This document shows, in pieces, positions 7,560-43,077 of a stretch of 43,077 nt of DNA. Source of the DNA: a virus. A program made the translations under genes and the position numbers. The stretch covers positions 1 to 43,077 of the IMG/VR virus record IMGVR_UViG_3300047357_000466. The stretch is one strand, 5' to 3'. Every line of letters starts with the position of its first letter. The first letter of the stretch is position 1. The notes beneath the pieces are model-generated. The model had not been told where the DNA came from, did not search any database, and worked only from the letters and a program-made list of their open reading frames with translations.

Positions 7560-9788
7560 ATGGCAAAAATGAATAAGATTAGTTCTTTTAAGTCTTTCTC
7601 TGAATTAAGAGAGACAGAAATAGCTGATAAATTACAACAAGAAAATAAAGCCAAAAGATTAGAGCTAACAACCAGGATAGGTAAAATATTAGACGAGATG
7701 GAAATAACATCTTTTGAAAATCTAGAAGAAGAAGTTAGAGATCAATTAATAGAAAAATCATTTGGTTTAATTAAAGAAGGAGATAAAACAAAGGTTTCTA
7801 AGAAAGAAATTAAATTTCACCTAGATGCTTTTAAAAAAGGAGATATTGAAGGTGAAGATTTAGCACAGGCTATTTCAGATATTATATTTGGAGAAGTAAA
7901 AGGGCCAGGCATGGAATCTAAAGATCCTGAACAAGTTTCAGAAGCAACTGTTGTTATGGATGCAATAAACCCTGGTGATAAAGATTTCTTAAAATTCTTA
8001 AAAAAGAATAAAGTTAAAATAATTGACACTGTAAAATCAGGCCCAAGTGGACATCCTGAAATTACAATGCAAGGAAAAAGAAAAGATCTTGAAGCAGTAT
8101 TAGCTGATAGTGAATTAGGATGGGATGATCCTGGTTTAGCAGAATTTATTGAAGAATCAGTAAACATTTCAGAAGCAGTAATAGTTACTGGTAGAAGAGA
8201 CGCTAAAAAAGTTTTAACAGCATATACTAAATTTTTCCAAAAATATCCAGCATTAGCTGATAGAAGATTTACAGGTTTACATTTAGGAGCAATTAAATCC
8301 TTAATGGTTTCTGCACTAACAGACGCTAATTTTCATAGAGAATCAGCAGCATGCGGAAAGGCTATTAAAGGAGCAAAGCTTCAACCAGTTTTTATTAAGC
8401 CAATGGAATTAAATAAAACAGAAATTAAAGTACCTGTTGGTAAAGTAGCATCTATTTTAGATGATAATGCATCTCTTATTTCTGGTGCAGCCAGCTTTTC
8501 TGGTTTAGGTATTGCTGAAGGAACGGCATTATACTTAGATTCTCTTAAATATGTTAAAGAAGCAGAGGCAGTTATTGCATGTTTTAATTCTACGTTTGAA
8601 AGTGAAGTTACTGACGTAACAGAAGGTAATGCATTTTTAGGAGCAAGAGCTAAGGCTATTGAAGAAGATGCTGAAGAATTTGAATTTAACGGTAAAAAAT
8701 ATCCAGTAATTAAAGAATCAGAAGAAGTTACTGAATCAGACGAACCAAAGTGTAATAATAAAAAAGGACATTTATATAAGCAAATTGACAAGGACGGAAC
8801 GGTAGAATGTGTGCACTGTGGTTTAAGAAATTCATTAAGCGAATCAGTAATTAAAGAAGCAGAAGAAGCAGAAGAAGCAGAAGAAGTTACTGAAGCTAAA
8901 TTTGTAAAAGATTTTGATAAAGATGTTTTAGATGCTGAAACCAAAGCAGATATAACAACTTACTACCCTTCTGCTAAATTCTTTATAGGTAAATCAACCC
9001 ACTTCTTCGGAGAATTAGATAAAAATTTATTTTTTAAAGCATATTATAAAGATTATGTAAAGAAGGCTGGTGGTAAAATCGATGGTGATTTTAAAATTGT
9101 AATGATATATTCTGAAAAAGGTAGTAATTTTGTACCTTTATTTACTAGAGAAGTTACTGAATCAGTGGTTACTGAAGCTAAAATTAATTCTGACGAAGAG
9201 TTTAAAGAATATGCTACAACTGTTTTACAAAAAGCGTTTGGTGAAGATTATGACGAAGCAAAAGCAAACGAAGTTATTGATGGTATTTTAGCAAAAGTTG
9301 ACGGAGATTACGGCGCTGCTGTAGGAATGTTAACATCTTCATTAGGAGAATCAGTAGTTACTGAAAAATATAACAAGAAAAAGTTATTAAAAGCAATTAA
9401 GAATAAAGACGACATGTTCATTCAATTAGCAGACGGTACTGAACTACTAGTTTATAACCCAGATTCTAATAATGACGACAATGCAGAAATGTGGCACGAT
9501 GATGTGGTATTTGCGCTCGATCAAGACGGAGAAGAACATGAGGTTAAATACTCAGATATTGCAGGTATTGGTGAATCTGCAGTTACTGAAGCTAACGCTG
9601 ATGGAACTATTTCAGATGATGAAGACGAAAAAAGAGAGGAACTTTTAAATAGAGTTAAAGAACAAATGGAAGAGCTATTAGCATCTGCAGAATTAGACGC
9701 TAAAGATATTGGAGGCCCTTTTAGATCTCCTGGTATTATGTTCGATATTAGAAAACAACTTGATAAGCAAGTTAAAAAGTTTAAATAA
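7560..9788 (+). CDS. Modular internal-head polyprotein candidate
   Basis: 742 residues. The N-terminus (MNKISSFKSFSELRETE) resembles a capsid-targeting peptide. The rest is a string of small domains joined by Glu-rich linkers that repeatedly contain hydrophobic-x-Glu-small sites: VSEA (126-129), ISEA (203-206), IAEG (318-321), VTEG (353-356), VTES (390-393), IKEA (431-434), VTEA (443-446), VTES then VTEA (532-540) and VTEA (675-678). T4 prohead protease gp21 cuts after Glu in such contexts. A zinc-ribbon-like module is visible (Cys398, His404, Cys417, Cys420). No catalytic motif is recognised. A terminator follows. Processing by gp21 and packaging in the head are inferences from these sites and from the neighbouring genes. 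Confidence 0.65.
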   Translation: MAKMNKISSFKSFSELRETEIADKLQQENKAKRLELTTRIGKILDEMEITSFENLEEEVRDQLIEKSFGLIKEGDKTKVSKKEIKFHLDAFKKGDIEGEDLAQAISDIIFGEVKGPGMESKDPEQVSEATVVMDAINPGDKDFLKFLKKNKVKIIDTVKSGPSGHPEITMQGKRKDLEAVLADSELGWDDPGLAEFIEESVNISEAVIVTGRRDAKKVLTAYTKFFQKYPALADRRFTGLHLGAIKSLMVSALTDANFHRESAACGKAIKGAKLQPVFIKPMELNKTEIKVPVGKVASILDDNASLISGAASFSGLGIAEGTALYLDSLKYVKEAEAVIACFNSTFESEVTDVTEGNAFLGARAKAIEEDAEEFEFNGKKYPVIKESEEVTESDEPKCNNKKGHLYKQIDKDGTVECVHCGLRNSLSESVIKEAEEAEEAEEVTEAKFVKDFDKDVLDAETKADITTYYPSAKFFIGKSTHFFGELDKNLFFKAYYKDYVKKAGGKIDGDFKIVMIYSEKGSNFVPLFTREVTESVVTEAKINSDEEFKEYATTVLQKAFGEDYDEAKANEVIDGILAKVDGDYGAAVGMLTSSLGESVVTEKYNKKKLLKAIKNKDDMFIQLADGTELLVYNPDSNNDDNAEMWHDDVVFALDQDGEEHEVKYSDIAGIGESAVTEANADGTISDDEDEKREELLNRVKEQMEELLASAELDAKDIGGPFRSPGIMFDIRKQLDKQVKKFK
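8856..8886 (+). repeat. Nine-base tandem repeat, about 3.4 copies
   Basis: GAAGCAGAA is repeated three times and followed by a partial GAAG copy, in frame, encoding Glu-Ala-Glu steps in a linker of the polyprotein. It separates the zinc-ribbon-like module from the next module and is probably a length-variable linker. Confidence 0.8.
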
Positions 9789-10160: not shown

Positions 10161-11444
10161 ATGAAAATATTATCATTTAAAGATTTTTTAATAGAAAGAG
10201 AAAATAAAGAAGCATTAGATTCTAAATTAATTTTAGAAGGTGGTGCGGCTGGACACATGTCACATCCATTTGATGAAAAAGATTTGACATTTGCAGATTT
10301 TAAAAAGATAGTAACTTCTGGTCTTCAAGGTGAATTAAACTTTGAGGAAGAAGCAACTGAAAAAACTGATGGTCAAAATGTATTTGCAACAGTTCAAGAT
10401 GGTGAAGTAAAATTTGCCAGAAATAAAACTGAATTAGCAAATCCAATGGACCTTGCTACTTTTAAGAATAAGTTTGAAGGACATCCAAGTAAATTAGTAC
10501 AAGATACTTTTCAATTTGCTGCAGAAGATTTAGCAAACTCATTAAATAAATTATCCCCTAAAGATTTAGAAGTTTTTGATAATGGTAAAAACTGGATGAA
10601 TATGGAGTTAATTTACTCTAAGAATCCAAACGTTATCTATTATGACCGCGATGTTATTCAATTTCATGGAATAAAGAAAACTGATGGAGAAGGTAATATT
10701 ATTGGAGATGATAACAAACCAGCAAGATCAATTGCAAAAGCAATGCAAGATCTTAAAATTAACGTTGGTAAAACATTTACAGTTATTCCACCTCAAATTA
10801 TTAAATTAGGTAAAGATTTAGATTTTGAAAAAAATCAATCTAAATTTATAAAACAAATTGAAGCATTAAGAGATCGCTATAACTTAACAGATGCTGATGA
10901 AGTTTCTAAATATCATGAAATGTGGTGGAGAGAAACAATAGATACAAATTTTCCTGATTTACAACAAGATTATAAAGAAGGTTTATTATTAAGATGGGCT
11001 TATGGAGATAAGAAATCTTTAAATATGAGAAGCCTTGCAAAAGAAATAGGAAAAGATGAAGCAGCTTCTGTTAAGAAATTTGATAAAGAAGATGTTAAAA
11101 AGAAATATAAAGAAAACATTAGACCGTTCGAAGATTTATTCTTAGAACTAGGATCTATAATTCTTAAGAATGCTTCTAATTTTGTAGCAGCTAATCCAGC
11201 TAGTGAAATGCAAAGACTGCATACCCAGATCAGAAATGAATCAGATAAAATTAAAAAAGGTGGAGGAGAGGCTCAAATTGCAAAAGTTGAAGCCGAACTT
11301 GCTAGATTAGATAGAATCGGAGGAATAGAATCTATTATACCAACTGAAGGGATAGTTTTTGTATATAAAGGAAAAACAATGAAATTAACAGGTACATTTG
11401 CAGCCATTAATCAATTAATGGGTATCATAAAATACGGAAGATAA
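10161..11444 (+). CDS. Ligase-fold nucleotidyltransferase-like protein with targeting-like N-terminus
   Basis: 427 residues. The N-terminus MKILSFKDFLIERENKEA is capsid-targeting-like. Motifs of the covalent nucleotidyltransferase superfamily (DNA/RNA ligases, capping enzymes) can be placed: motif I EKTDG (Lys68 as candidate nucleophile in Lys-x-Asp-Gly), FARNK shortly after, MNMELIY (147-152) as motif III, EGIVFVYKG (396-404) as motif IV and MKLTG (407-411) as motif V. The GGAAGHMSHPFDEKDLTFADF segment before motif I looks like a conserved family signature. An EGLLLRW at 273-279 is an alternative motif IV. Substrate is unknown: DNA ends, RNA ends and nucleotide transfer are all possible. It is followed one base later by a second ligase-like gene. 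Confidence 0.6.
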   Translation: MKILSFKDFLIERENKEALDSKLILEGGAAGHMSHPFDEKDLTFADFKKIVTSGLQGELNFEEEATEKTDGQNVFATVQDGEVKFARNKTELANPMDLATFKNKFEGHPSKLVQDTFQFAAEDLANSLNKLSPKDLEVFDNGKNWMNMELIYSKNPNVIYYDRDVIQFHGIKKTDGEGNIIGDDNKPARSIAKAMQDLKINVGKTFTVIPPQIIKLGKDLDFEKNQSKFIKQIEALRDRYNLTDADEVSKYHEMWWRETIDTNFPDLQQDYKEGLLLRWAYGDKKSLNMRSLAKEIGKDEAASVKKFDKEDVKKKYKENIRPFEDLFLELGSIILKNASNFVAANPASEMQRLHTQIRNESDKIKKGGGEAQIAKVEAELARLDRIGGIESIIPTEGIVFVYKGKTMKLTGTFAAINQLMGIIKYGR

Positions 11445-11445
11445 T

Positions 11446-13329
11446 ATGGCACTTAAAAAATTAAGAGAACATTTTCAAGAAACTAACATTAATGAGTTTC
11501 ACAGATTGTTAAAAAATAGAGTAATAGTTGTTGAAAAGATTTCAGCCCCATCTTTTTATGTTAGAAGAAATAAAGAAAAATTTGAATTTTACAAATCTTC
11601 AAAATCTAAACCTCTGACAATAATAGATAGAACTATTATGTCTCTTTATGAAGTTGCAATTAAACATATACAGAGTTTAAATCCTAAAAGTAAAAAAGAA
11701 TTGCCAGATAATTATAGATTTGGCTTTGAGTATTTGCCAGAAGAAAGGGTTTCTGAATATGTATACACTAAAATACCTAAAAATACTTTAATATTAACAC
11801 ATATCCAACAGCTGGGTGAAAATGGAAAAGTAAAAAAGACAATTATAGATCCTTTAATTATAAAAAAATGGGCTAATGTATTAGAAGTACAACAACAAGA
11901 AATTATATTTGACGGAACTTTAGATTCAACTCAAAAAGAAAAGCTTATTAATTTATTAGAAATGAATGATAAATCTTTTTCTGAGTCATTCGATTACGAC
12001 GTAGAAACAGACAAATTAGTTTCTTTTACAAAAGAAATATACAAGATATTTGATACTAACTCAACATCAAGTATTCTTCAAGAGGATTTAGAATCTGAAA
12101 TAGATGGTTTAGTTTTAAATTTTGCTGAAGGTAAAAAAATACAATCTTACAAATTAGAAGATTTTATTAGAAAACCTTTAAATGAAATTAGGGAAGGTTC
12201 ACACACATATCAAATAGCAATTGCAGATATATTAGAATTTTTTGTTAATTATGATTTTTCAGAAACAAATCTAGTTGAAGAAAATGCAGAAAAAAGATAC
12301 CTAGAATTAATTTCAGCAGCATTTAACAAATACGTTAACAAAAATGCAACAAGATATATTGGAGTTAATTTCCAAAATGCAGAATTTTCTTCTTCTAAAT
12401 TATTTAATTTAAACACAACATTTATTAAAAACGAAAAAACATTAACACACGTTTCAAACGAAGTTTTATCAAGTTTGTTTAAAATAACATTAGGTACTTT
12501 TAGAAAGCATAAAACGAAAGCAACAGATATACTAAATGACGATATGATATCTCAATTAAATAATATAGTTGATAAAATCAATGATGTCGTTTTTCTAGAA
12601 AAAGCAGACGAAAATTCTATATACGATTATAAGAATTTTATGATGCATAACAATATAAAAAGCGAAGTAACTTTAAATGAAGCGTTAACTGTTAAGCACG
12701 CTGAGCAAGGTAAAGAATTAGTAAATATGTTCGTTGGTAGATTTCAACCATTTACATTAGGACATGCAAAGGTTTTAGAAGCTATTCATAAACAAAATGG
12801 ATATCCAGTTATTGTATTTTTAATTAAAGCAAAATCTAAAAAGAAAGGTGACGAATTTAGAAAGCCTTATTCTGAAGATTTACAAATTAAAATGTTTAAG
12901 CAAGTTCAAAAGCAATATAAATTCTTAAAGGAAATTATAGTACTTGATAGAGGTGCTATTGATTATATGTTTAACGAATTAAGACCTAAATATGAACCAG
13001 TTCTTTGGGGAACCGGATCAGACCGAATGACTTCTTATGGATATCAAGTAAATAATGATTCTTATAGAGATCAATTAAATGTAAGATCTGATTTTGGATT
13101 ATTTGAAATACCAAGAAATGATAATAATATATCAGCAACTCAAGTAAGAAATGCACTATTAGATGGTAATGAAAAGGAGTTCAAAAAGATGACACCAAGG
13201 GCAATTCATAAAATGTATGACACTTTAAAGTCTGAACTTGAAAAATCTATGGAGATGGTCGCAGCTTCTAAAGTTATATCAGAATCAGTTATGACATTTC
13301 AAGAATATATGAATAAATTAAAATCATAA
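11446..13329 (+). CDS. Ligase-fold protein fused to an NMN-adenylyltransferase-like domain
   Basis: 627 residues in two parts. Residues 1-245 resemble a ligase-fold nucleotidyltransferase: VVEKISAPSFYVRR (Lys31 as candidate nucleophile), RFGFEYLPE (91-99, motif III), EIDGLVLNF (218-226, motif IV) and YKLEDF (235-240, motif V). Residues 423-600 form a Rossmann-type nucleotidylyltransferase: MFVGRFQPFTLGHAKVLEAI carries the HxGH-type signature (Thr-Leu-Gly-His at 437-440, with Gly431-Arg432-Phe433-Gln434-Pro435) and NISATQVRNAL (561-571) is the ISxTxxR motif of the NadM/NadR-type NMNAT family. The C-terminus ESVMTFQEYMNKLKS resembles a targeting peptide placed at the end. NAD+ synthesis or repair during infection is a reasonable inference. 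Confidence 0.65.
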   Translation: MALKKLREHFQETNINEFHRLLKNRVIVVEKISAPSFYVRRNKEKFEFYKSSKSKPLTIIDRTIMSLYEVAIKHIQSLNPKSKKELPDNYRFGFEYLPEERVSEYVYTKIPKNTLILTHIQQLGENGKVKKTIIDPLIIKKWANVLEVQQQEIIFDGTLDSTQKEKLINLLEMNDKSFSESFDYDVETDKLVSFTKEIYKIFDTNSTSSILQEDLESEIDGLVLNFAEGKKIQSYKLEDFIRKPLNEIREGSHTYQIAIADILEFFVNYDFSETNLVEENAEKRYLELISAAFNKYVNKNATRYIGVNFQNAEFSSSKLFNLNTTFIKNEKTLTHVSNEVLSSLFKITLGTFRKHKTKATDILNDDMISQLNNIVDKINDVVFLEKADENSIYDYKNFMMHNNIKSEVTLNEALTVKHAEQGKELVNMFVGRFQPFTLGHAKVLEAIHKQNGYPVIVFLIKAKSKKKGDEFRKPYSEDLQIKMFKQVQKQYKFLKEIIVLDRGAIDYMFNELRPKYEPVLWGTGSDRMTSYGYQVNNDSYRDQLNVRSDFGLFEIPRNDNNISATQVRNALLDGNEKEFKKMTPRAIHKMYDTLKSELEKSMEMVAASKVISESVMTFQEYMNKLKS

Positions 13330-13376: not shown

Positions 13377-15278
13377 ATGAATAAATCACACTTTAATCAA
13401 GATGATAGAGTAGATGAAGGAAAAATAACAATAAAAAGACGTTATACTGAAAACTACCCTGCAAAAACTGTTGGTAAATCAGCAAGAATTAGAAACAAAA
13501 TGTTGGAAGCAATTTCTGACGGTGCTATTACTCAAGAAGAATTTGATTCTATTATAGCAGAATTATCGTCTGATTCAAAAAGATGGTTATCTCGTAATTC
13601 TAGGTTATTTAATATTACAGAAGCTGGAATAACATTAACAGGGTTAGGTAAAAAGATTTTATCTCAAATTACAGTAAATGAAAAAACAGAAAAGAATCCA
13701 GAAATATGGGTTCCTGGGAAGTTTGATAAAGACGTTTCTAAATTAACAGCCGACGAATTAACAATAGACAATATAAAAAAATTATCAAAAAAACATAGAG
13801 TATTTTTAGACGATGCAATTGCATACGTTGAGTATAGCTTCGATGTTGATATTGTAGAAAATAAAGAAAATAATATGAAAACAAAATTAGTTTTTGAATC
13901 TTTTGGAGATTTTGTAAATTCATTAAACAAAAATAATGAAGAATTAAACGAAGGAACTAGAGGTCAATTTGGAATGATTGATAAAAAAGGAAATATCCAA
14001 TCAGTGTATATGCATTACGATTCATATCCTGAAAATATTTTACCTTTAATAAAAAAGGGTTATAAAAACGCTAAAAAAGTACAGGCAGTTATTGATAGAG
14101 GAGATACTTCTGGATTAGATAAAACAGTTGATGCTATGAATTTCTATGAAGATGGAAGAAAACCAACATCTGGTAAAAAAGCAGACATAGATCGTTATAT
14201 TAAAAAAGCAGCTGATGATGGTGGAGCAGAATACATTTATTTATATGACGAGTCTGATAAAACTTGGTATATGGTAGATGTTTATGGAGACATGCAATTA
14301 GTTCCAGCATTTGAATCTGTAGTTAATGAAGCATTTAAATCTTCTAAATTAAGAAATTTAGTAAGTATGGATCAATCACAACGCGATGGATATGGTAAAG
14401 CAAGAAATTTAGCAGCAGCTATTTATGGATTATCAAAACTAAAATTAGATAAAATTGAAGATTCTTCTTTAATTGATGTAGATCCTAAAGAAGCTTATAA
14501 AAAATATCAAAACAATAGAGACTATTTAGTTTTTTATATAGTAGACAACGAAAAAGAAAATGAATACAGTAAAGGTTCATTTACAGCATCAATAAAACCA
14601 GGTATTTTAGCTTTAACCAGAGGAAAAGACTTTTTATCAGTTCAATACGTCCAAGCTAGAAGAAACACAAAAGTAACACGTACTTTAGGAAAAGATGATG
14701 GTAATGCAATTGGTGGTAATAAAAGATATTCTGGATATGATGCATCGGGTATTTCTTCAGTTGTAAGAGCTTCTAAATTAGCAGACAGAGCAATTGTAAT
14801 TGATATTGTTAATGGTGGCGAAACTTCAAAAGAAGAAAGAAACGAAAGAGCAAGAGCAAAAGAAGGAGCTTTAGCTTTTAAATCTGACGCAGACTTTAAG
14901 AAAGCTAACAAGGCAAGATACCAAGAAATCTTAGCAACTAAAGCTTCTAAGTTACCTCTTGATAAAATGGTTAATGATGCTATTGATGATTTAGGAAAGC
15001 AAATTAAAGATGGTCTTAAGGCTAATAAAAAGACAGAATACGGAGAGCTTAAAATTGGAGAAAATTCTAAAGGTAGAGCAGTTAAAATTACAGATGCTTC
15101 AAACCACATGAGTAGAATCTTATCTGATTATCAAAGATATGTTGAATACATGGTAAAAGCAGAAGAAGAAAAAGGTAGAGATTATTCATCAGGATATTAC
15201 GAAAAGAATTCAAAACAATACGCTAAAGATATTAAAGATTCAGTTAAAAAAATACCTACGTTCGATTACGCTTGGTAA
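13377..15278 (+). CDS. Modular putative internal-head protein, possible fusion
   Basis: 633 residues. Residues 1-160 form a charged first unit (IRNKMLEAISDGAITQEEF). At Met167 a new targeting-like sequence begins, MKTKLVFESFGDFVNSLN, preceded by an A-rich stretch like true starts in this genome (internal ATG at 13875). A module at about 190-310 follows (TRGQFGMIDKKGNI, MHYDSYPENILPLIKKGY, ADDGGAEYIYLYD), a pattern I associate with small domains found in many phage proteins. SVVNEAFKSS (314-323) looks like another processing site, after which a 310-residue Lys-rich unit runs to the stop. No catalytic residues are recognised. Two products, from the first start and from 13875, are possible. Confidence 0.6.
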   Translation: MNKSHFNQDDRVDEGKITIKRRYTENYPAKTVGKSARIRNKMLEAISDGAITQEEFDSIIAELSSDSKRWLSRNSRLFNITEAGITLTGLGKKILSQITVNEKTEKNPEIWVPGKFDKDVSKLTADELTIDNIKKLSKKHRVFLDDAIAYVEYSFDVDIVENKENNMKTKLVFESFGDFVNSLNKNNEELNEGTRGQFGMIDKKGNIQSVYMHYDSYPENILPLIKKGYKNAKKVQAVIDRGDTSGLDKTVDAMNFYEDGRKPTSGKKADIDRYIKKAADDGGAEYIYLYDESDKTWYMVDVYGDMQLVPAFESVVNEAFKSSKLRNLVSMDQSQRDGYGKARNLAAAIYGLSKLKLDKIEDSSLIDVDPKEAYKKYQNNRDYLVFYIVDNEKENEYSKGSFTASIKPGILALTRGKDFLSVQYVQARRNTKVTRTLGKDDGNAIGGNKRYSGYDASGISSVVRASKLADRAIVIDIVNGGETSKEERNERARAKEGALAFKSDADFKKANKARYQEILATKASKLPLDKMVNDAIDDLGKQIKDGLKANKKTEYGELKIGENSKGRAVKITDASNHMSRILSDYQRYVEYMVKAEEEKGRDYSSGYYEKNSKQYAKDIKDSVKKIPTFDYAW

Positions 15279-16865: not shown

Positions 16866-17243
16866 ATGAAAATAGCTTTAATAGCGCACGACAACAAAAA
16901 AGCTGACATGGTCGCTTTTGTATCAAAAAGATTACCTTTCTTTAATAGAAAGGATATTACTATTGTAACCACTGGAACAACGGGAAAACACGTTATGCAT
17001 GCTGGGATAGAAGACGTTATTAAAGTAAATTCAGGGCCACTTGGAGGAGATGCTCAGATAGCAGCAATGGTTACTGAAGGTGAAATAGATTTAGTTATCT
17101 TTTTAAGAGATCCATTAGGCAAACATCCACATGATGTTGATATCAGTATGTTAATGCGATTATGTGACGTTCATGATATACCTCTCGCAACAAATTATAG
17201 AACAGCAAGCTACTTAGTTAAATATTTAAAATCTTGTAAATAA
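16866..17243 (+). CDS. mgsA: Methylglyoxal synthase
   Basis: 125 residues, a little shorter than E. coli MgsA (152) but covering the whole catalytic domain. It converts dihydroxyacetone phosphate to methylglyoxal and phosphate, bypassing lower glycolysis. The key residues are all in place: His8 (IALIAHDNKK, E. coli His19), Asp62 in SGPLGGDAQIAAM (Asp71), Asp82 (Asp91), and KHPHDVD with His89 and Asp92 (His98 and Asp101). The phosphate-binding TTGTTGKH segment is also present. It is first in a short operon with a small gene and a cytidylyltransferase-like gene, and is separated from the cargo block by a terminator. Why a phage would carry it is not clear from the sequence. Confidence 0.9.
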   Translation: MKIALIAHDNKKADMVAFVSKRLPFFNRKDITIVTTGTTGKHVMHAGIEDVIKVNSGPLGGDAQIAAMVTEGEIDLVIFLRDPLGKHPHDVDISMLMRLCDVHDIPLATNYRTASYLVKYLKSCK

Positions 17244-17479
17244 TGGAAATGTTTTTATTTAAACCGGATAATTATAAAGAATGGTCAGATAGCGCTATTA
17301 AAAAAATAATAAAAGTTGTAGATTCATGTATCAGTGATGACCATTTAGACTCTGCTAAACAAATGATAGATCATTTTATTTTAATGCTTGCCTTAAATGA
17401 AACTTACTCAGAAGAAACTGTACAAGATATATCAAAACAATTATATTTATATTTAAATATTAAAAAATCTAATATATGA
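17243..17479 (+). CDS. Small hypothetical protein in the mgsA operon
   Basis: 78 residues. The start overlaps the mgsA stop by one base and the end overlaps the next start by four bases, so it is translationally linked on both sides. It is mostly helical and acidic, with a motif-poor sequence (MEMFLFKPDNYKEWSDSAIK, DSAKQMIDHFILMLALNE). No signal peptide, membrane segment or metal site is apparent. I do not recognise the family. Confidence 0.65.
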   Translation: MEMFLFKPDNYKEWSDSAIKKIIKVVDSCISDDHLDSAKQMIDHFILMLALNETYSEETVQDISKQLYLYLNIKKSNI

Positions 17480-18051
17480 GTTCTAAAACAAAAATAGGAT
17501 TTACAGCAGGAAACTTTGATCTATTACATCCTGGCTATATTTATACATTTGAAACTGCAAAACAACACTGCGATCACTTCATAGTTTTTCTACAAATTGA
17601 TCCATCTGAAACAAGATTCACGAAATATAAACCAGTAATACCTTTATATGAAAGATATAAAACTTTAATGGCAATACAATACGTTGATGAAGTTATAACA
17701 TATCAAACAGAAGAAGATCTAATTAAATTAATAAAATTCTATAAACCTGATGTTAGAATTTTAGGAGAAGACTATATTGGTAAAGGATTCACAGGAGATG
17801 ATTTACCCCCTAAGGTAATTTATACAACGCGATCACATAACTGGTCAACTACTAAACTCAAGGATTTAATTACAATGCAAACTATTAAGCAAAATCCTGA
17901 AATAGTAGATAGAGCTAAGAATGAAAAAGAACAAACGTCTCACCAAAGATTAATGTTAGCAATTAGAGATCAAATTGCACAACATGCTGAAGGTAATTTA
18001 ACTGAGGCACAATATAAATCAGCAATTAAAGAATTATTAGAAGAATCATGA
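17476..18051 (+). CDS. TagD-like cytidylyltransferase family protein
   Basis: 191 residues; the first 130 match the glycerol-3-phosphate cytidylyltransferase family (TagD, about 130 residues). GFTAGNFDLLHPGYIYTF corresponds to the HxGH region, but the second histidine is Tyr (His-Pro-Gly-Tyr). YVDEVI, VRILGEDYIGK and RSHNWSTTKLKD match TagD's YVDEVI, VFVMGDDWEGK and RTEGISTTKIKE segments. A helical C-terminal extension of about 60 residues is unusual. The family transfers CMP or AMP to phosphorylated alcohols or sugars. With the RmlB-like dehydratase next to it, production of a nucleotide-activated sugar or polyol is a reasonable inference. The start overlaps the previous gene by four bases. 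Confidence 0.75.
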   Translation: MSSKTKIGFTAGNFDLLHPGYIYTFETAKQHCDHFIVFLQIDPSETRFTKYKPVIPLYERYKTLMAIQYVDEVITYQTEEDLIKLIKFYKPDVRILGEDYIGKGFTGDDLPPKVIYTTRSHNWSTTKLKDLITMQTIKQNPEIVDRAKNEKEQTSHQRLMLAIRDQIAQHAEGNLTEAQYKSAIKELLEES

Positions 18052-22392: not shown

Positions 22393-22859
22393 TGGCAAAC
22401 ATAGATAACGAATGTAAAGACTTAGAAGTAAAAGACTTTTATGATCAGTCAAACACTCACCTAGCAGATATCATGGAAAACCAAAAAAAGATGCAAGAGC
22501 AGACTTACGGTTTTAACTTTGATGATATGACAATCCGAGAAATTATGGATTTCTGGCACTGCAATACACATGCAGTTGTTGATGAAATTCACGAAATGAC
22601 TGATGCTCTTGGTGGTATTAAAGATGGTTCTGGAAATGCAGTATGGAAATACTGGAAAAAAGACTTTACAAAATACGATACATTAAAGATTTCTGACATG
22701 TCTGAAGGAGACAAAAAAGAATTGTATATGGAATGGGTAGATATTCTACACTTCTTTATTAATTACGCCGCTTCAATCGGGCTAGATGCTAAAACAGCAT
22801 ATAACTATTATTTCGCAAAAGCAGAAGAAAATGTTAACCGTCAGAAAAATAACTATTAA
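22392..22859 (+). CDS. All-alpha dUTPase/dCTPase-like NTP pyrophosphatase
   Basis: 155 residues with the all-alpha NTP pyrophosphatase (MazG/dimeric dUTPase) pattern: HAVVDEIHEMTDALGG gives an E-x-x-E metal site and MEWVDILHFF gives an E-x-x-D site. KAEENVNRQKNNY near the C-terminus resembles the Asn-x-x-Arg-Gln segment of dimeric dUTPases. T4 gp56 (dCTPase/dUTPase) belongs to this superfamily and keeps unmodified dCTP out of phage DNA. A role in dUTP or dCTP removal is therefore likely, but the base specificity cannot be told. It overlaps both neighbours by one base. Confidence 0.75.
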   Translation: MANIDNECKDLEVKDFYDQSNTHLADIMENQKKMQEQTYGFNFDDMTIREIMDFWHCNTHAVVDEIHEMTDALGGIKDGSGNAVWKYWKKDFTKYDTLKISDMSEGDKKELYMEWVDILHFFINYAASIGLDAKTAYNYYFAKAEENVNRQKNNY

Positions 22860-24256
22860 TGATATTAGATATCGAACAAAGAGATAGGGATGTCATTGTT
22901 TCCTATTACGATACTGAAGGTAAAGTAGCATATAAACAATATCCAATTGCTCAATTCCAGAATTGGTATATATGTGATGAAAAAGAAAAAGGAGTTAGCT
23001 CTGAATTTAAAAACTGGGATGGAAGGCCTGTTAAATTAGGAAACGCTAGACAATTCAATAAATTTTCATTAAATTATTTTATAGACGGATTACCTGAAAA
23101 AGATAAAGAAGAAATTTTAGCATATAATATGCCTAAAACCTATTTTGTCGATATTGAAACTGAAATTGTAGATGGTTTTCCTAAAGCTGAAGAAGCTAAA
23201 AGTAGAATTTTATCATTCTCAATTATTACACCAGAACGTAAAGCAATTGTATTAGGACTGGAAGATATGGCTCCTGATAAAATTAAAAAGATCAATGATG
23301 ATACTAATGAGTACTTCAAAGACTTTGATCAGGATTGGGAATTTAAGTACCATAAGTTTAATACTGAATATGATATGGTATATACTTTTTTAATGAAGTT
23401 TTTACCTAAATTTCCAATGATGACTGGCTGGAACTTTATAAACTATGACTGGCAATATATCGTGAATAGATGTAAAAGATTGCAAATAGATGTTACTGAA
23501 ATAGGCATGACTAAAAAGGTTGATAGAAACGATTCTAGACCTTTACATATTGGTATTTTAGATTACATGCAGTTATATGATAAATATGATCGTAGTGTGA
23601 AAGTAAAAGAATCTAATGCACTTGATTACGTTTCTGGTCAAGTATTAAACGTAAAGAAGATTAAATACTCAGGCTCATTACAGGATTTATATAGAGATAA
23701 TTTCGTTAAATACATTTATTATAACGTGGTCGATTCAGTGTTGGTATACTATATTGATCAAAAGTTAAAATCAATGGAAGTTCTTTTAACTCTTGCAAAT
23801 ATAACAAGAATGCCGCTATATAAAGCAGCTTCTCCTGTGGCAGTCACAGAATCTTTAATGGCAAGAAAGCTAGCAGAGCAAGGAATGCGAATAGGAACCG
23901 AAAGAAGAGAAGATAGTGAAAAGAATTCTCAATACGCCGGAGCATTTGTTAAAGAACCTATTGTTGGATATTATGAAGGTGTAAGTGCATTTGACTTTGC
24001 TTCCCTATACCCATCCATAATGAGACAATTTAATATTTCGCCAGATGCTTATATAGAGCAGGTATATAAGACTGAGGTTGCGGAAAGACGTAAAGACAAA
24101 GATGTTATTGTTTGTGATAATGGTGTAGTTTATAAAAAAGATGATAGTATTCTTAAAAAGATATTAACAGATTTATATGCTCAAAGGAAACAATATAAGA
24201 AAATGTCGTATGATTATTTTACTAAAGCCGATCAGCTTAAAAAAAGATTAAGATAA
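22859..24256 (+). CDS. 43A: DNA polymerase, N-terminal half (T4 gp43 type)
   Basis: 465 residues of a family B polymerase that ends inside the fingers. The proofreading exonuclease is complete: YFVDIETEI (Asp98, Glu100), WNFINYDWQYI (Asp197) and YNVVDSVLVYYI (Asp292). The palm begins with motif A, AFDFASLYPSIM (Asp379), and the open frame stops after a charged helix (LYAQRKQYKKM, then residues 451-465). Motifs B and C are absent and are found 3.9 kb downstream in a separate gene. The two parts together (865 residues) are close to full-length gp43 (898). Nothing suggests decay: both halves are intact and in good frame. They must associate to give an active enzyme. Confidence 0.9.
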   Translation: MILDIEQRDRDVIVSYYDTEGKVAYKQYPIAQFQNWYICDEKEKGVSSEFKNWDGRPVKLGNARQFNKFSLNYFIDGLPEKDKEEILAYNMPKTYFVDIETEIVDGFPKAEEAKSRILSFSIITPERKAIVLGLEDMAPDKIKKINDDTNEYFKDFDQDWEFKYHKFNTEYDMVYTFLMKFLPKFPMMTGWNFINYDWQYIVNRCKRLQIDVTEIGMTKKVDRNDSRPLHIGILDYMQLYDKYDRSVKVKESNALDYVSGQVLNVKKIKYSGSLQDLYRDNFVKYIYYNVVDSVLVYYIDQKLKSMEVLLTLANITRMPLYKAASPVAVTESLMARKLAEQGMRIGTERREDSEKNSQYAGAFVKEPIVGYYEGVSAFDFASLYPSIMRQFNISPDAYIEQVYKTEVAERRKDKDVIVCDNGVVYKKDDSILKKILTDLYAQRKQYKKMSYDYFTKADQLKKRLR

Positions 24257-28168: not shown

Positions 28169-29371
28169 ATGATAGAGATACAGGAACTTATTGATAAACC
28201 AGAAAGCGAGCTTAGTGTTCAAGAAACTGAAACATTGATTGATCATTATCAAACAATGTCTGCAAAATACACAGCGTACGAACAGGCAGTTAAAGTAACA
28301 CTAAACTCGATTTATGGTGCCTTTGGTAATAAATGGTTTCACTTTTTCGATATTGAAATAGCAGAATCAATTACATTACAAGGCCAAAGTGCCATTCTAT
28401 ATTCTGAAAAAATATTAAATAAATATTTTCAAGAATTTTGGCCAAAAGATACAGTAGTTCATGAACACTTTAATATTAGTATTAAAAATAAATTAGTAAG
28501 ACCATCCGTAGTTTATATTGACACAGATTCTTGCTATGTTCAGTTTGAAGAAATGTATGAGTCTATTGAATGGTTAGGAGAATCAAAACCTCCTATTGAT
28601 AAGTTTATTATGGATTTATATGAATTTAGACTTAAAGATTATATCACTAAATGTATGCAAAAATATGCAGATGTTACTAACACAAAAAACTTCTTGTTCT
28701 TCGAGTTAGAATCAATCGCATATTCAGGTATATGGTTAGCAAAAAAGAAGTATTTACAAAACATAGCATGGGAGGATAGATTAGAAGTTTCTGATAGATA
28801 TGATTCTCTTAAAAAAATTAAAACAATCGGGTTTGATACAATACAATCTTCAACACCGGCACTTGCACGTAAACACCTAACTGATGCTTTAAAAATAGTC
28901 CTTTCTGAAAAACCAACAGCAGATCTTCTTAAAAAGCTAGTAGATTATTTGAAGAAAGGTAAGAAAGAATTTAAATTGGCGGATATAGACCAAATAGCAT
29001 TTAATAAAAGAACAAACAATATTGAAAAATATATTGTAGATGATACTATTGAATTTCAAATAGGATTAAAGTGTCCACCTAATGTTAAAGCCGCAGGATT
29101 TTATAATTTCTTAATGAATCAATCCCCTAAATATAAAAACAAATATAAAATGATAGGTAATGGCGAGAAATTAAAGCTGTATCACTGTAAGCATTTATCA
29201 TGCGATATGTTTGCTTATTTGCCAGGAGATCATCCTTATGAAATTGCGCCTGAAGTTGATTACGAACTACAATTTGAAAAAAGCGTAATAGACCCTTTAA
29301 ATAGAGTATTGAAGGCAGTAGGTCTTCAGACTTTAAACAGAAATTTAATTTATTCAACATCATTATTTTAA
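28169..29371 (+). CDS. 43B: DNA polymerase, C-terminal half (T4 gp43 type)
   Basis: 400 residues carrying the rest of the family B polymerase. Motif B is QAVKVTLNSIYGAFGN (39-54) and motif C is VVYIDTDSCYVQF (Asp118 and Asp120 as metal ligands). The KKK-x-Y and thumb-region pattern (YSGIWLAKKKYLQNIAW, FDTIQSSTPALARKHL) matches T4 gp43. The last residues, ending in NRNLIYSTSLF, correspond to the clamp-binding tail. The first 35 residues form a charged helix that would complete the fingers of the N-terminal half at 22859. Start chosen at 28169, six bases after the clamp candidate. Without the other half it lacks motif A and exonuclease. Confidence 0.9.
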   Translation: MIEIQELIDKPESELSVQETETLIDHYQTMSAKYTAYEQAVKVTLNSIYGAFGNKWFHFFDIEIAESITLQGQSAILYSEKILNKYFQEFWPKDTVVHEHFNISIKNKLVRPSVVYIDTDSCYVQFEEMYESIEWLGESKPPIDKFIMDLYEFRLKDYITKCMQKYADVTNTKNFLFFELESIAYSGIWLAKKKYLQNIAWEDRLEVSDRYDSLKKIKTIGFDTIQSSTPALARKHLTDALKIVLSEKPTADLLKKLVDYLKKGKKEFKLADIDQIAFNKRTNNIEKYIVDDTIEFQIGLKCPPNVKAAGFYNFLMNQSPKYKNKYKMIGNGEKLKLYHCKHLSCDMFAYLPGDHPYEIAPEVDYELQFEKSVIDPLNRVLKAVGLQTLNRNLIYSTSLF

Positions 29372-39801: not shown

Positions 39802-41397
39802 ATGGCAGGATTCGTAGATAGAAATGGACCATTAAGCTACAATAAGAAATCATTTACACTGAGAGATCAGCTAAAGAAGCTAAGCTCTTTTGGTATGTAT
39901 TATGATGATTTAGTACTTAGGCAATCACAGGCAATAGGTCCGATTGAAGACGCAATAGGTTTTGGTCAAATGAACCAAATGGGATTAGACTCAGATGATA
40001 TGTATGGTGCTTTCGCAGCCCTTTCAATGTCTGATACTACAATGCGTAAGAATGTACCGTTCTTCGATCAAAATTACGAAAGTAAGCGTAATGAATTAAG
40101 AGCATTTTCAACGTATGATGAAATTGAAGATATTTTAGATATTCTTTGTGATGAGTCTGTTGTTTATGATAATAAAAACTTTTTTGCAACTCCTGAACTT
40201 ATAGGAATGGAAGTTAGTGAAGAAGTTGAAAAATATTTACAAAAAGCATATCGAGATATTTATCAATATTTTGGATTTAATCAAGATCAATCGGCATGGT
40301 ACTTTTATAGAAAGTTCTTAGTTGATGGTTATCTTTCTTTTGAAATAGTTTATAACCCTGAACAAACTCAAATTATTGGATTTAAAGAAATTGATCCTAT
40401 AACATTAATTCCAGGATATAATAAAACAGATGGCAAGAAAGTATGGACTCAATTTAAAGACGATCCAGTTAAGGAGAGAGTCCTGTATGATTCTCAGATC
40501 ATTTATATTTCTTATTCATCAATTACCACAGCCTCGAGAGTAAGTTACTTAGAGAGACTTATAAGGTCATTTAATTTAATGAGAATTATGGAACACACTA
40601 GAGTAATCTGGGCTGTTACTAATTCTTCTTATAGAATGAAATTTATAATCCCAGTTGGTGGTAAATCTAAAACAAGAGCAAAACAATCACTTGCTCAGTT
40701 AATGAATAACTATAAAGAAGTTGTAGATTTTGATTGGGAATCTGGAAGTATGCATACTGACGGTAAACCAATGTTACAATTTAATAAAGAATATTGGTTA
40801 CCTTCGAAAGATGGAGAACAGCCGGAGATTGAAACACTAGGAGGAGAAGGTCCTGAATTATCAGACACAGAAGCTCTTAAATATTTCTCAGATAAATTAA
40901 AAATGGTTTCTAAAATACCATTTAATAGATTCATGTATGAAGATGGTGGTGGAGATTTCAATTTAGCCGCTGACGGTATGATTAGAGATGAGATTAAGTT
41001 TGGTAAATTTATTAAACGTTTAAGATCTACATTCCAAGAAATTTTAGTTAAACCGTTATACATTCAAATGTGTTTAAAATTTCCTGAATTTGAAAATGAT
41101 GCATCTTTTAAAACACAGATATCTCTACAATTCCTTGAGGAAAACATGTTTGCTGAATTAAAACAAATGGAAATCATGGAACGTAGAGTAGAGTTTATTA
41201 GTTCTGTAAAAGATTCTCTAGTTGAAACAAATCCAGAAACAATGGAAGAAGAATATTATTTCGATTCAGATTTCTTAGTCGATAGATACTTAAAACTAAG
41301 TCCAGATGATAAAGCAGCTAATGCAGCTTACAAGGCAAGAAAAGCTGCTAAAGATGCAGAAGAACCTGAGATTGACCCAATGGACATGGGAATATAA
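39802..41397 (+). CDS. 20: Portal vertex protein (T4 gp20-like)
   Basis: 531 residues (T4 gp20 524). The portal dodecamer nucleates head assembly, and DNA enters and leaves through it. Evidence is length, helical composition and T4-like segments: KNVPFFDQNYESKRNELRAF, AFSTYDEIEDILDILCDESV, SYLERLIRSFNLMRIMEHTR with VIWAVTNSSYRMKF, KMVSKIPFNRFMYEDGG and EIKFGKFIKRLRSTFQEIL. The C-terminus is helical and acidic (PEIDPMDMGI). It is followed by a core protein and the prohead protease, the T4 order. Confidence 0.93.
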   Translation: MAGFVDRNGPLSYNKKSFTLRDQLKKLSSFGMYYDDLVLRQSQAIGPIEDAIGFGQMNQMGLDSDDMYGAFAALSMSDTTMRKNVPFFDQNYESKRNELRAFSTYDEIEDILDILCDESVVYDNKNFFATPELIGMEVSEEVEKYLQKAYRDIYQYFGFNQDQSAWYFYRKFLVDGYLSFEIVYNPEQTQIIGFKEIDPITLIPGYNKTDGKKVWTQFKDDPVKERVLYDSQIIYISYSSITTASRVSYLERLIRSFNLMRIMEHTRVIWAVTNSSYRMKFIIPVGGKSKTRAKQSLAQLMNNYKEVVDFDWESGSMHTDGKPMLQFNKEYWLPSKDGEQPEIETLGGEGPELSDTEALKYFSDKLKMVSKIPFNRFMYEDGGGDFNLAADGMIRDEIKFGKFIKRLRSTFQEILVKPLYIQMCLKFPEFENDASFKTQISLQFLEENMFAELKQMEIMERRVEFISSVKDSLVETNPETMEEEYYFDSDFLVDRYLKLSPDDKAANAAYKARKAAKDAEEPEIDPMDMGI

Positions 41398-41426: not shown

Positions 41427-41765
41427 ATGAAAAGAGTAAGATTATACGAAGATTTTATAGCTGAAGATGCAAAAACAGTTACACCTGATTCGGATATTAA
41501 AATTGATGATTTTTCAACAGACGATGGGATTGAACTTAAATCTCAAGAAATTATTGGAGCAATAGTTAGTTCTGCGACTGAAAAAGAATTTAAAGAATAT
41601 TTTTTTGATCAATATGGCAACACAGCTTTTACGGAAGCAGATATGCAAAGTTTAGTCACAATGTATAATGAATATGTAGAAGAAGTTACCGCGATAGAGA
41701 CCGAAGAGGAAGAAGAAGAGAAAAAAGAAGAAGAAGGAGAAGATGATCCTTTAGCAGATATTTAA
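41427..41765 (+). CDS. Prohead core protein candidate (T4 gp67-like)
   Basis: 112 residues. The N-terminus MKRVRLYEDFIAEDAKT is very like the T4 capsid-targeting peptide MKTYQEFIAEA, with a gp21-type cleavage point after FIAE. The middle is helical (IIGAIVSSATEKEFKEYFF). The C-terminus is a long acidic run (TEEEEEEKKEEEGEDDPLADI). T4 gp67 is also small with an acidic tail and sits between gp20 and gp21, exactly the position here. Prohead core proteins are digested by gp21 before DNA packaging. Confidence 0.65.
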   Translation: MKRVRLYEDFIAEDAKTVTPDSDIKIDDFSTDDGIELKSQEIIGAIVSSATEKEFKEYFFDQYGNTAFTEADMQSLVTMYNEYVEEVTAIETEEEEEEKKEEEGEDDPLADI

Positions 41766-41834: not shown

Positions 41835-43077
41835 ATGAGCAAAACTGACTTATTAATCTTAGAAAGATCTGCTTCGGGTTTAGAATTTAAAGAAGAAAAC
41901 GGAGTATATGTATTAGAAGGAGTTTTTGGCGAATTAGATACGAAGAATAGAAACAACCGTATTTACACTGCTGAAGAGTATCTACCACAGATCGAATCAT
42001 TACAAGATAAAATCAAAGCATCTAAACTTTTAGGTGAATTAGATCATCCACAAAATTTTGACGTTTCTTTAAAGAATGTATCACACATTATTGAAGAAAT
42101 AACATACGATGAAGCAAATAAGCAAATTAAAGGACGTATTAGATTATTAGATACTGACGCTGGTCGTCAAGCTAAAGCACTTGTTGATGCTGGAGTACCA
42201 CTTCAAATTTCTTCAAGAGCAGCCGGCGCTGTAGAATCTAATGGTAAAGTAAAGATTAAACAATTATTTACTTATGATTTAGTTGCAGATCCTGGATTTG
42301 AAAACGCAGAATTAAAGAGAGTTAACGAATCTTTTGGATTTGAAAACAACTCTGATATTCTAATTTATGAAATCGGTGGAAGCTCAAACTTAAACGAAGA
42401 AACAACAAAAATCGAAAATAAACAAACAGAAACAATGGCAGAATCTAAATTTATCACTGTTGAAGATTTTAATAAGTACTCACAATATCTTTCTGAAGAA
42501 ATGAAGAGTATTAAAGAATCTATGGCAGCTGCTAAAGAAAATGGCAATGATACAGAAATAGAAAATCTAAAAGAATATGCTGGATATTTAGCAGAAAAAT
42601 TAGATCAGTCTATTAATACAGCCGAAGAATTAGCAACAAAAACAGATCAATCAATTCAGTACACGGAATCTATTGCTGAAAAATTAGATCAATCAATTCA
42701 ATACTCTGAGCATATTGCTGAAGGTGTTGATTCAATTAAAGAGTACACTAACTACTTAGCAGAATCTTATAACGAAGGAGCAACAACTCACGAAGGTTTA
42801 TTAAAGTACATCGACTACTTAAAAGAAAACTTAGAAAAAGTTACAGAATACGCAGAATATGTTGCTGAAACTGTAAATTCTAATTTAATTTTAGAAGATG
42901 AAGCTGGTAAAGAAGTTGAGGAAATCGAAGCTGAAAACGATGCAAAAGACGTTACTGAACCAACAGTTGATGCTGAAGGTAATGAGCTTGAACACGGAGC
43001 TGAAGTTAAAGATGTTGAAAAAGATCTAGAACTTGAAGGTGAAGGAGACGCTGAAGGAGAGGAAATCTCAGAAGAAG
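41835..43077 (+). CDS. 21: Prohead protease (T4 gp21-like) with scaffold-like extension, 3'-truncated
   Basis: 414 residues are visible from the ATG at 41835; the frame is still open at the window end. Residues 1-165 match the gp21 serine protease: GVFGELDTKNRNNRIY, LLGELDHPQ (His71), LQISSRAAGAV (Ser126/127) and YDLVADPGFENAEL (Asp152 near the active site). T4 gp21 ends near 212. Here, from about residue 200, a long coiled-coil region follows with repeats such as IAEKLDQSIQYTE and IAEGVDS, then an acidic Glu-rich segment. That looks like a gp22-type scaffold fused in frame. Met201 (42435) is in an A-rich context and could start a separate scaffold product. Confidence 0.85.
   Translation, partial: MSKTDLLILERSASGLEFKEENGVYVLEGVFGELDTKNRNNRIYTAEEYLPQIESLQDKIKASKLLGELDHPQNFDVSLKNVSHIIEEITYDEANKQIKGRIRLLDTDAGRQAKALVDAGVPLQISSRAAGAVESNGKVKIKQLFTYDLVADPGFENAELKRVNESFGFENNSDILIYEIGGSSNLNEETTKIENKQTETMAESKFITVEDFNKYSQYLSEEMKSIKESMAAAKENGNDTEIENLKEYAGYLAEKLDQSINTAEELATKTDQSIQYTESIAEKLDQSIQYSEHIAEGVDSIKEYTNYLAESYNEGATTHEGLLKYIDYLKENLEKVTEYAEYVAETVNSNLILEDEAGKEVEEIEAENDAKDVTEPTVDAEGNELEHGAEVKDVEKDLELEGEGDAEGEEISEE

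Follow-up and report, generated by a model that had tools for sequence, protein, structure and literature searches.

What would a phage gain from two adjacent proteins that both resemble nucleic acid ligases, one of them fused to a domain related to nicotinamide mononucleotide (NMN) adenylyltransferases (NMNATs), the enzymes that make nicotinamide adenine dinucleotide (NAD+)? The locus that raises this question lies in a 43,077-base virus record (IMG/VR IMGVR_UViG_3300047357_000466; the whole stretch is hereafter the window), a T4-like marine phage fragment in which profile searches also identify UvsW, gp32, a T4 portal and an S77 prohead protease. Two open reading frames (ORFs) separated by 1 nt, P1 (10161..11444, 427 residues) and P2 (11446..13329, 627 residues), are located on the + strand, as are all of their features given below. 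The boundaries and motifs quoted for them in the original prediction, which was made from the letters of the window alone, are all in place. According to our analysis, P1 has an RNA-ligase fold with intact ligase motifs, and P2 joins an Rnl2-type ligase domain (about residues 1-382), decayed at motif I, to an NMNAT-like HIGH nucleotidyltransferase (NTase; about residues 424-605).

Folds and active sites of P1 and P2

The AlphaFold2 model of P1, built from 36 relatives, has a predicted local distance difference test score (pLDDT) of 88 and a predicted template modelling score of 0.84, with residues 1-29 below a pLDDT of 50. T4 RNA ligase 1 (Rnl1) is its best match among solved structures (probability 0.96, E 1.4e-3 in the PDB fold search), and the first 33 PDB fold matches consist almost entirely of RNA or DNA ligases. 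In a viral structure library, the top four hits are large phage proteins, of which two bear the name cytidyltransferase-like; uncharacterised phage proteins come next, and many annotated RNA ligases after them. K68, D70, G71, R87, E149, E396, G397 and K408 are invariant across the 36 relatives, down to approximately 33% identity; they comprise motif I (K68-T-D-G, 10362..10373), R87, E149, E396GIV and K408, and ligase motifs I (KxDG), III, IV (EGxV) and V (K) are all conserved. Since these ligase-motif residues are invariant, P1 looks catalytic, and Lys68, whose place in the ligase active site the original prediction put up for checking, is indeed the predicted nucleotidyl-acceptor lysine of motif I. 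By predicted fold and motifs, P1 belongs to the covalent nucleotidyltransferase (ligase) superfamily.

The likeness to T4 Rnl1 includes the order of the KxDG, EGxV and K motifs. However, P1 differs from Rnl1 in lacking a sequence-profile match, in carrying an N-terminal HxxHxx[DE] signature (H32xxH35xxD38, 10254..10274, 5' of motif I), a leader peptide and, separating motifs IIIa and IV, a long helical insertion, and in having an NTase partner. No ligase Pfam family is matched by P1 or any of the 36 relatives, and P1 does not fall within the Rnl1 sequence family. When one fused P1 was used to query bacterial and archaeal genome contigs, no P1 was confirmed.

The predicted model of P2 (pLDDT 83.5) matches T4 RNA ligase 2 (Rnl2) in its N-terminal half (E 9e-8, probability 1.00), together with the tRNA ligase Trl1 and an archaeal RNA ligase, and its C-terminal part matches PPAT/NMNAT structures. 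The ligase fold anticipated for both proteins is thus supported. The RNA_ligase family PF09414 is matched by 18 of 52 P2 relatives (best E 1.6e-7), although not by the window P2 itself, which differs from the Rnl2 family also in its motif I and its C-terminal fusion. The fused domain (12715..13260) passes the PF01467 cut-off with 42.7 bits against 21 and carries GRFQPFTLGH and ISATQVR, in agreement with the HIGH-type pattern GxFxPx[HT]xxH plus ISxTxxR. By sequence, the solved structures closest to it are NMN adenylyltransferases (2qjo, 1f9a, 1ej2), so that the NMNAT-like character proposed for this end of P2 holds. These matches and the GRFQPFxxGH and ISxTxxR motifs are shared with phage NMNATs of the NadM/NadR type. 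In the parts consulted of a survey of viral NAD+ systems, however, NadM is described as fused to Nudix and NadR to a kinase, whereas the P2 domain is fused to a ligase fold, and the P2 clade is mostly devoid of NAPRTase.

Motif I of the window P2 (11536..11547) reads KISA within EKISAPS. Judged by motif position and alignment, as was K68, K31 corresponds to the motif I lysine of P2 relatives (EKMDGS), whereas the D and G of KxDG are substituted, leaving no intact KxDG active site; the prediction for Lys31 therefore stands for the position of the lysine but not for the motif around it. Among P2-NMNAT representatives that lack a P1 neighbour, most of them from large-genome phages, KxD[GA] is intact in 26 of 29 (typically EKMDGSAF ... 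FGLEYF ... IEGIVFRF ... LAKMVDP); among those with one, it is intact in none of 31. A whole-record search found P1 in none of the 12 tested records of the P1-less type. The earlier expectation of two active ligases is consequently not borne out. In the tree, three P1-positive lineages have three different motif-I lesions (D/G replaced, K to N, K to Q). Because motif I is also lost in two P1-less P2 lineages, few independent loss events are involved, and the pattern with and without P1 suggests, over these few lineages, a division of labour. Presumably, P1 took over catalysis, and the ligase domain of P2 serves as a partner or binding domain. The profiles of P1 and P2 are only weakly similar (E 0.06), though their comparison aligns K68 with K31.

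Ligase and HIGH nucleotidyltransferase coupling across phages

At least 595 P1 relatives are confirmed in viral contigs, among the 600 pattern matches listed. The P1 gene adjoins a P2[ligase]-NTase gene in the window clade and in LR756500, and it is itself fused behind an NTase in proteins of 639-1065 residues (Mel-JY01, LR756508, L065-L086), in which the NTase is of the GRFQPMGKHH or GGFKPxTGAH type and, in one case, an extra ParB-like domain is present. P2[ligase]-NTase proteins without P1 occur in large-genome phages, and the P2-like ligase domain occurs alone, with its Lys lost, in huge phages. With the GRFQPFTLGH of the window, the NTase partners span at least three HIGH types. In addition, 503-residue proteins of Campylobacter Firehammervirus combine a ligase-like domain bearing KxDG with an NTase (PF01467 3.6e-5, weak PF09414), as do related Vibrio phage proteins. 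Judging from these sequences, a ligase and a HIGH NTase are coupled repeatedly, in several architectures and in hundreds of phages, largely unnoticed. The consulted parts of a jumbo-phage RNA-repair survey (2021), which describes an Rnl2-HNH fusion, and of the viral NAD+ survey contain no mention of such coupling. RNA ligases, phage NMNATs, capsid targeting and cyanophage virion NMNAT-like proteins are all known elements, and their combination is new as far as could be checked.

Several of these loci have further peculiarities. The Campylobacter and Vibrio ligase-like plus HIGH NTase fusions are annotated as hypothetical proteins of T4-like phages (503 and 484 residues; L202:1975-3486, L205:2056-3510), and gp20 is found about 2 kb downstream of the Campylobacter gene. 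Xanthomonas phage X1 (L201:128-3477) and Stenotrophomonas phage Ps15 (L206:393-3510) have a Pol-beta-like ORF (GDIDI/GDVDI) upstream of a small ligase-like ORF and a HIGH NTase; the ligase-like ORF is recognised by its motifs (KxDG, SRS, EGVxI), and Pfam gives no support. One phage has two tandem P1-P2 pairs of diverged sequence (L016:6001-13239), and another encodes a 915-residue ParB-like, HIGH NTase and P1 fusion, with a terminase-like ORF a few genes downstream (L004:6525-9272). The sequence TATTTATA, perhaps an initiation signal in this group of phages, is located 11-12 nt before the start codon of NTase-P1 fusions (L066:407-414, L071:2569-2576, L073:5212-5219, L086:2655-2662).

By motifs alone, a similar couple is found in cyanophages, where the otherwise unannotated DUF6267 (T4-GC71), present in 470 phage records, lies directly upstream of the HIGH NTase T4-GC190 in 73 of 78 loci (e.g. 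L207:4782-5774, L208-L290). DUF6267 has a ligase-like KxDG...EG[FY]V...K series, and the signature HxxHxx[DE]-(20-60)-KxDG followed by EGxV is common to all 36 P1 and all 16 DUF6267 proteins and absent from approximately 1083 other ORFs. The kinship of P1 and DUF6267 is at the level of motifs only, because hhalign finds no significant similarity between them; the profile comparison of P2 with DUF6267 is not significant either. The cyanophage couple differs from P1-P2 in gene order and fusion. Our literature search found nothing on DUF6267 or on a heterodimeric phage DNA ligase.

Capsid-targeting-like peptides and possible virion packaging

P1 begins with a capsid-targeting-like leader, MKILSFKDFLIER (10161..10199), that follows the pattern [FY]xx[FY][ILV]xE, is predicted to be disordered and terminates with [IL]xE, where the prohead protease might cut; such candidate sites occur in other leaders of the kind too. 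P2 ends in a leader-like peptide containing MTFQEYMNKLKS (13276..13326). Both peptides, noted in the original prediction, are real and conserved: the pattern is present on 42 of 44 distinct P1 leaders, and TFxxF on 37 of 40 distinct C-termini of the window clade. In the window, the same leader is carried by a 100-residue ORF upstream of P1 (9848..10150, +; YEEFINE) and by a 112-residue ORF (41427..41765, +; YEDFIAE) between the T4-like portal gp20 (39802..41397, +; PF07230, E 5e-70) and the prohead core protease (41835..43076, +; PF03420, E 1e-11; incomplete at the window end). The latter ORF occupies the position of the T4 prohead-core genes, and it provides an internal reference for the peptide, which P1 has in common with it. 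Around P1, the pattern starts 65 of 349 non-P1 genes, this ORF included, against 2.0 expected from protein interiors (approximately 30-fold). It is also enriched in the P2-NMNAT loci of large-genome phages (58 of 610 against 3.0 expected).

In T4, internal proteins with a capsid-targeting sequence are packaged, injected and directed against host defence (PMC3012670). The proteins described here resemble them in having a short N-terminal targeting peptide on variable cargo, but the cargo is enzymatic and P2 has a C-terminal version of the peptide. The cyanophage NTase T4-GC190 has the same leader pattern on 33 of 35 distinct starts and was detected in purified S-SM1 virions (PMC3037559), and cytidylyltransferase/NMNAT-like proteins are present in the virion proteomes of S-CREM2, S-CBWM1, S-SZBM1 and S-SCSM1 (PMC10665884; PMC9602691). 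Published virion detection thus covers only this leader-bearing cyanophage NTase family, and P1 and P2 may be packaged by way of their peptides. The proposal of a head-delivered pair accordingly gains support from the shared prohead-type peptide and from a homologous virion protein with the same leader.

Other window genes deserve mention. Cargo-like proteins at 7560-9788 and 13377-15278 have repeated ES[VA][VI][TKN]E linkers (four in one protein and one in the other), which could be interdomain prohead-protease sites. Sub-cut-off Pfam matches in the neighbours, such as PF22133 on 13377-15278 (22 bits against 52 required), were set aside. An MGS-like (methylglyoxal synthase-type) domain protein (16866-17243; PF02142, 59 bits) adjoins this cluster, and a second HIGH NTase (17476-18051; PF01467, 51 bits) stands beside an ORF resembling an NAD-dependent sugar epimerase. 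The ORFs at 22859-24256 and 28169-29371 look by sequence like two parts of a split family-B DNA polymerase; about 4 kb, holding several genes, separates them.

Proposed role of the pair and its rivals

We tentatively favour, with somewhat less than even confidence, the explanation that P1 and P2 are packaged together and repair RNA ends, with an NMNAT-type activity alongside, at the onset of infection. The N-terminal peptide of P1 and the C-terminal peptide of P2 would carry both proteins into the prohead, where the prohead protease may trim them, and both would enter the host with the DNA. Lys68 of P1 would take AMP from ATP and hand it to a 5'-phosphate end, which would be sealed as in Rnl1 and Rnl2. 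The Rnl2-derived domain of P2, having lost motif I, may be kept as a nucleic-acid-binding or partner subunit in contact with P1, tethering an active NMNAT-type NTase that would combine ATP and NMN into NAD+ or a similar dinucleotide. The couple might thereby repair host or phage RNA, rather than DNA, cut by early defence nucleases.

Several observations weigh against this explanation. Sequence searches of Pfam, NCBIfam, PHROGs and PDB return nothing significant for P1, and the E-value of its best PDB fold match is only modest; nor does the evidence separate RNA from DNA as the substrate of the pair. The NMNAT equivalog scores of P2 are far under the cut-offs (about 32 bits against 409 for NF003791 and 27 against 181 for TIGR01527), and therefore "NMNAT-like HIGH nucleotidyltransferase" is the safe name. 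The leader occurs on none of the 103 genes in fused NTase-P1 loci, so packaging is not universal in the P1 family. The T4 late-promoter sequence TATAAATA is not enriched upstream of leader-bearing genes (3 of 124 vs 10 of 424), and the authors of the cyanophage proteomes flag possible carry-over of abundant proteins in CsCl purification (PMC10665884; PMC9602691). The last three points would suit proteins that act only within the infected cell, the leader being a chance or unrelated motif. We consider this unlikely in view of the N-terminal enrichment of the leader and its presence both on the ORF in the portal-protease interval and on the virion-detected NTase family.

Restoration of NAD+ could instead be the real job, the NMNAT domain being selected and delivered early against NAD+-depleting defences, with the ligase domains as carriers or accessories. 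This would be consistent with the NTase motifs of the window clade, which remain intact while the P2 ligase motif decays, with the recurrence of NMNAT-like proteins in cyanophage virion proteomes, and with NAPRTase in 12 of 26 records. However, the active site of P1 is invariant, the NadM and NadR fusions described above do not involve ligases, and nicotinamide is unusable by NMNAT alone. NAPRTase/NadV, needed for its salvage, is found in only 2 of 8 P1+P2 records, compared with 6 of 12 P2-NMNAT-only records and 4 of 4 with the P2-like domain alone. As these counts vary, nicotinamide salvage is not an obligate partner, and strict NadV coupling was rejected. NAD+ restoration, suggested in the original prediction, is therefore possible but unproven, given also the low equivalog scores, and as the real job it seems to us somewhat unlikely.

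The HIGH NTase might also be no NMNAT at all and act on a nucleic-acid end or another phosphorylated small molecule, with ligase and NTase working sequentially to cap, decap or tag one 5' end. Since the NTase partners of the ligases are of at least three HIGH types, they need not all use NMN; some relatives also match HIGH_NTase1, citrate lyase ligase and FAD synthetase, and the equivalog scores are low. Nevertheless, the best sequence matches of P2 are NMNATs and, to our knowledge, no HIGH NTase uses a polynucleotide end as an acceptor, which leaves this alternative somewhat improbable. A pair that seals DNA ends or nicks, repairing or circularising the incoming phage DNA, would suit delivery along with the genome and a fold common to DNA ligases, but we hold it very unlikely: the best folds of P1 and P2 are RNA ligases, PF09414 is an RNA-ligase family, and a separate ATP-dependent DNA ligase is encoded in 15 of 20 carrier records, some of which also have a canonical RNA ligase. 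As most carriers possess their own DNA ligase, P1 is presumably not needed for replication. A ligase that uses NAD+ and releases NMN, from which the NTase remakes NAD+, would be neat chemistry for a ligase-NMNAT fusion but is supported by no computed result. Rnl1, Rnl2, Rnl3 and Trl1, the closest folds, use ATP or GTP, neither P1 nor P2 matches the adenylation domain PF01653 of NAD+-dependent ligases, and that family occurs in 1 of 20 carrier records. Such recycling is disfavoured as extremely improbable.

A bolder possibility is that the ligase and the HIGH NTase act in sequence on one RNA 5' end as a new virion-borne pathway. Such a pathway would install or remove a dinucleotide-type (NAD-like) cap, or ligate through one, and its conservation would extend from jumbo phages as far as the cyanophage core (DUF6267 and T4-GC190); we regard it as quite unlikely.

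Membership in a ligase-NTase couple is a candidate reason for the recurrence of NMNAT-like proteins in cyanophage virions. The unannotated P1 family, and possibly the common DUF6267, become testable as RNA- or DNA-end enzymes. If they are active, phages would bring a ready-made end-repair kit that works before phage gene expression, which would bear on anticodon-nuclease and NAD-depletion defences.

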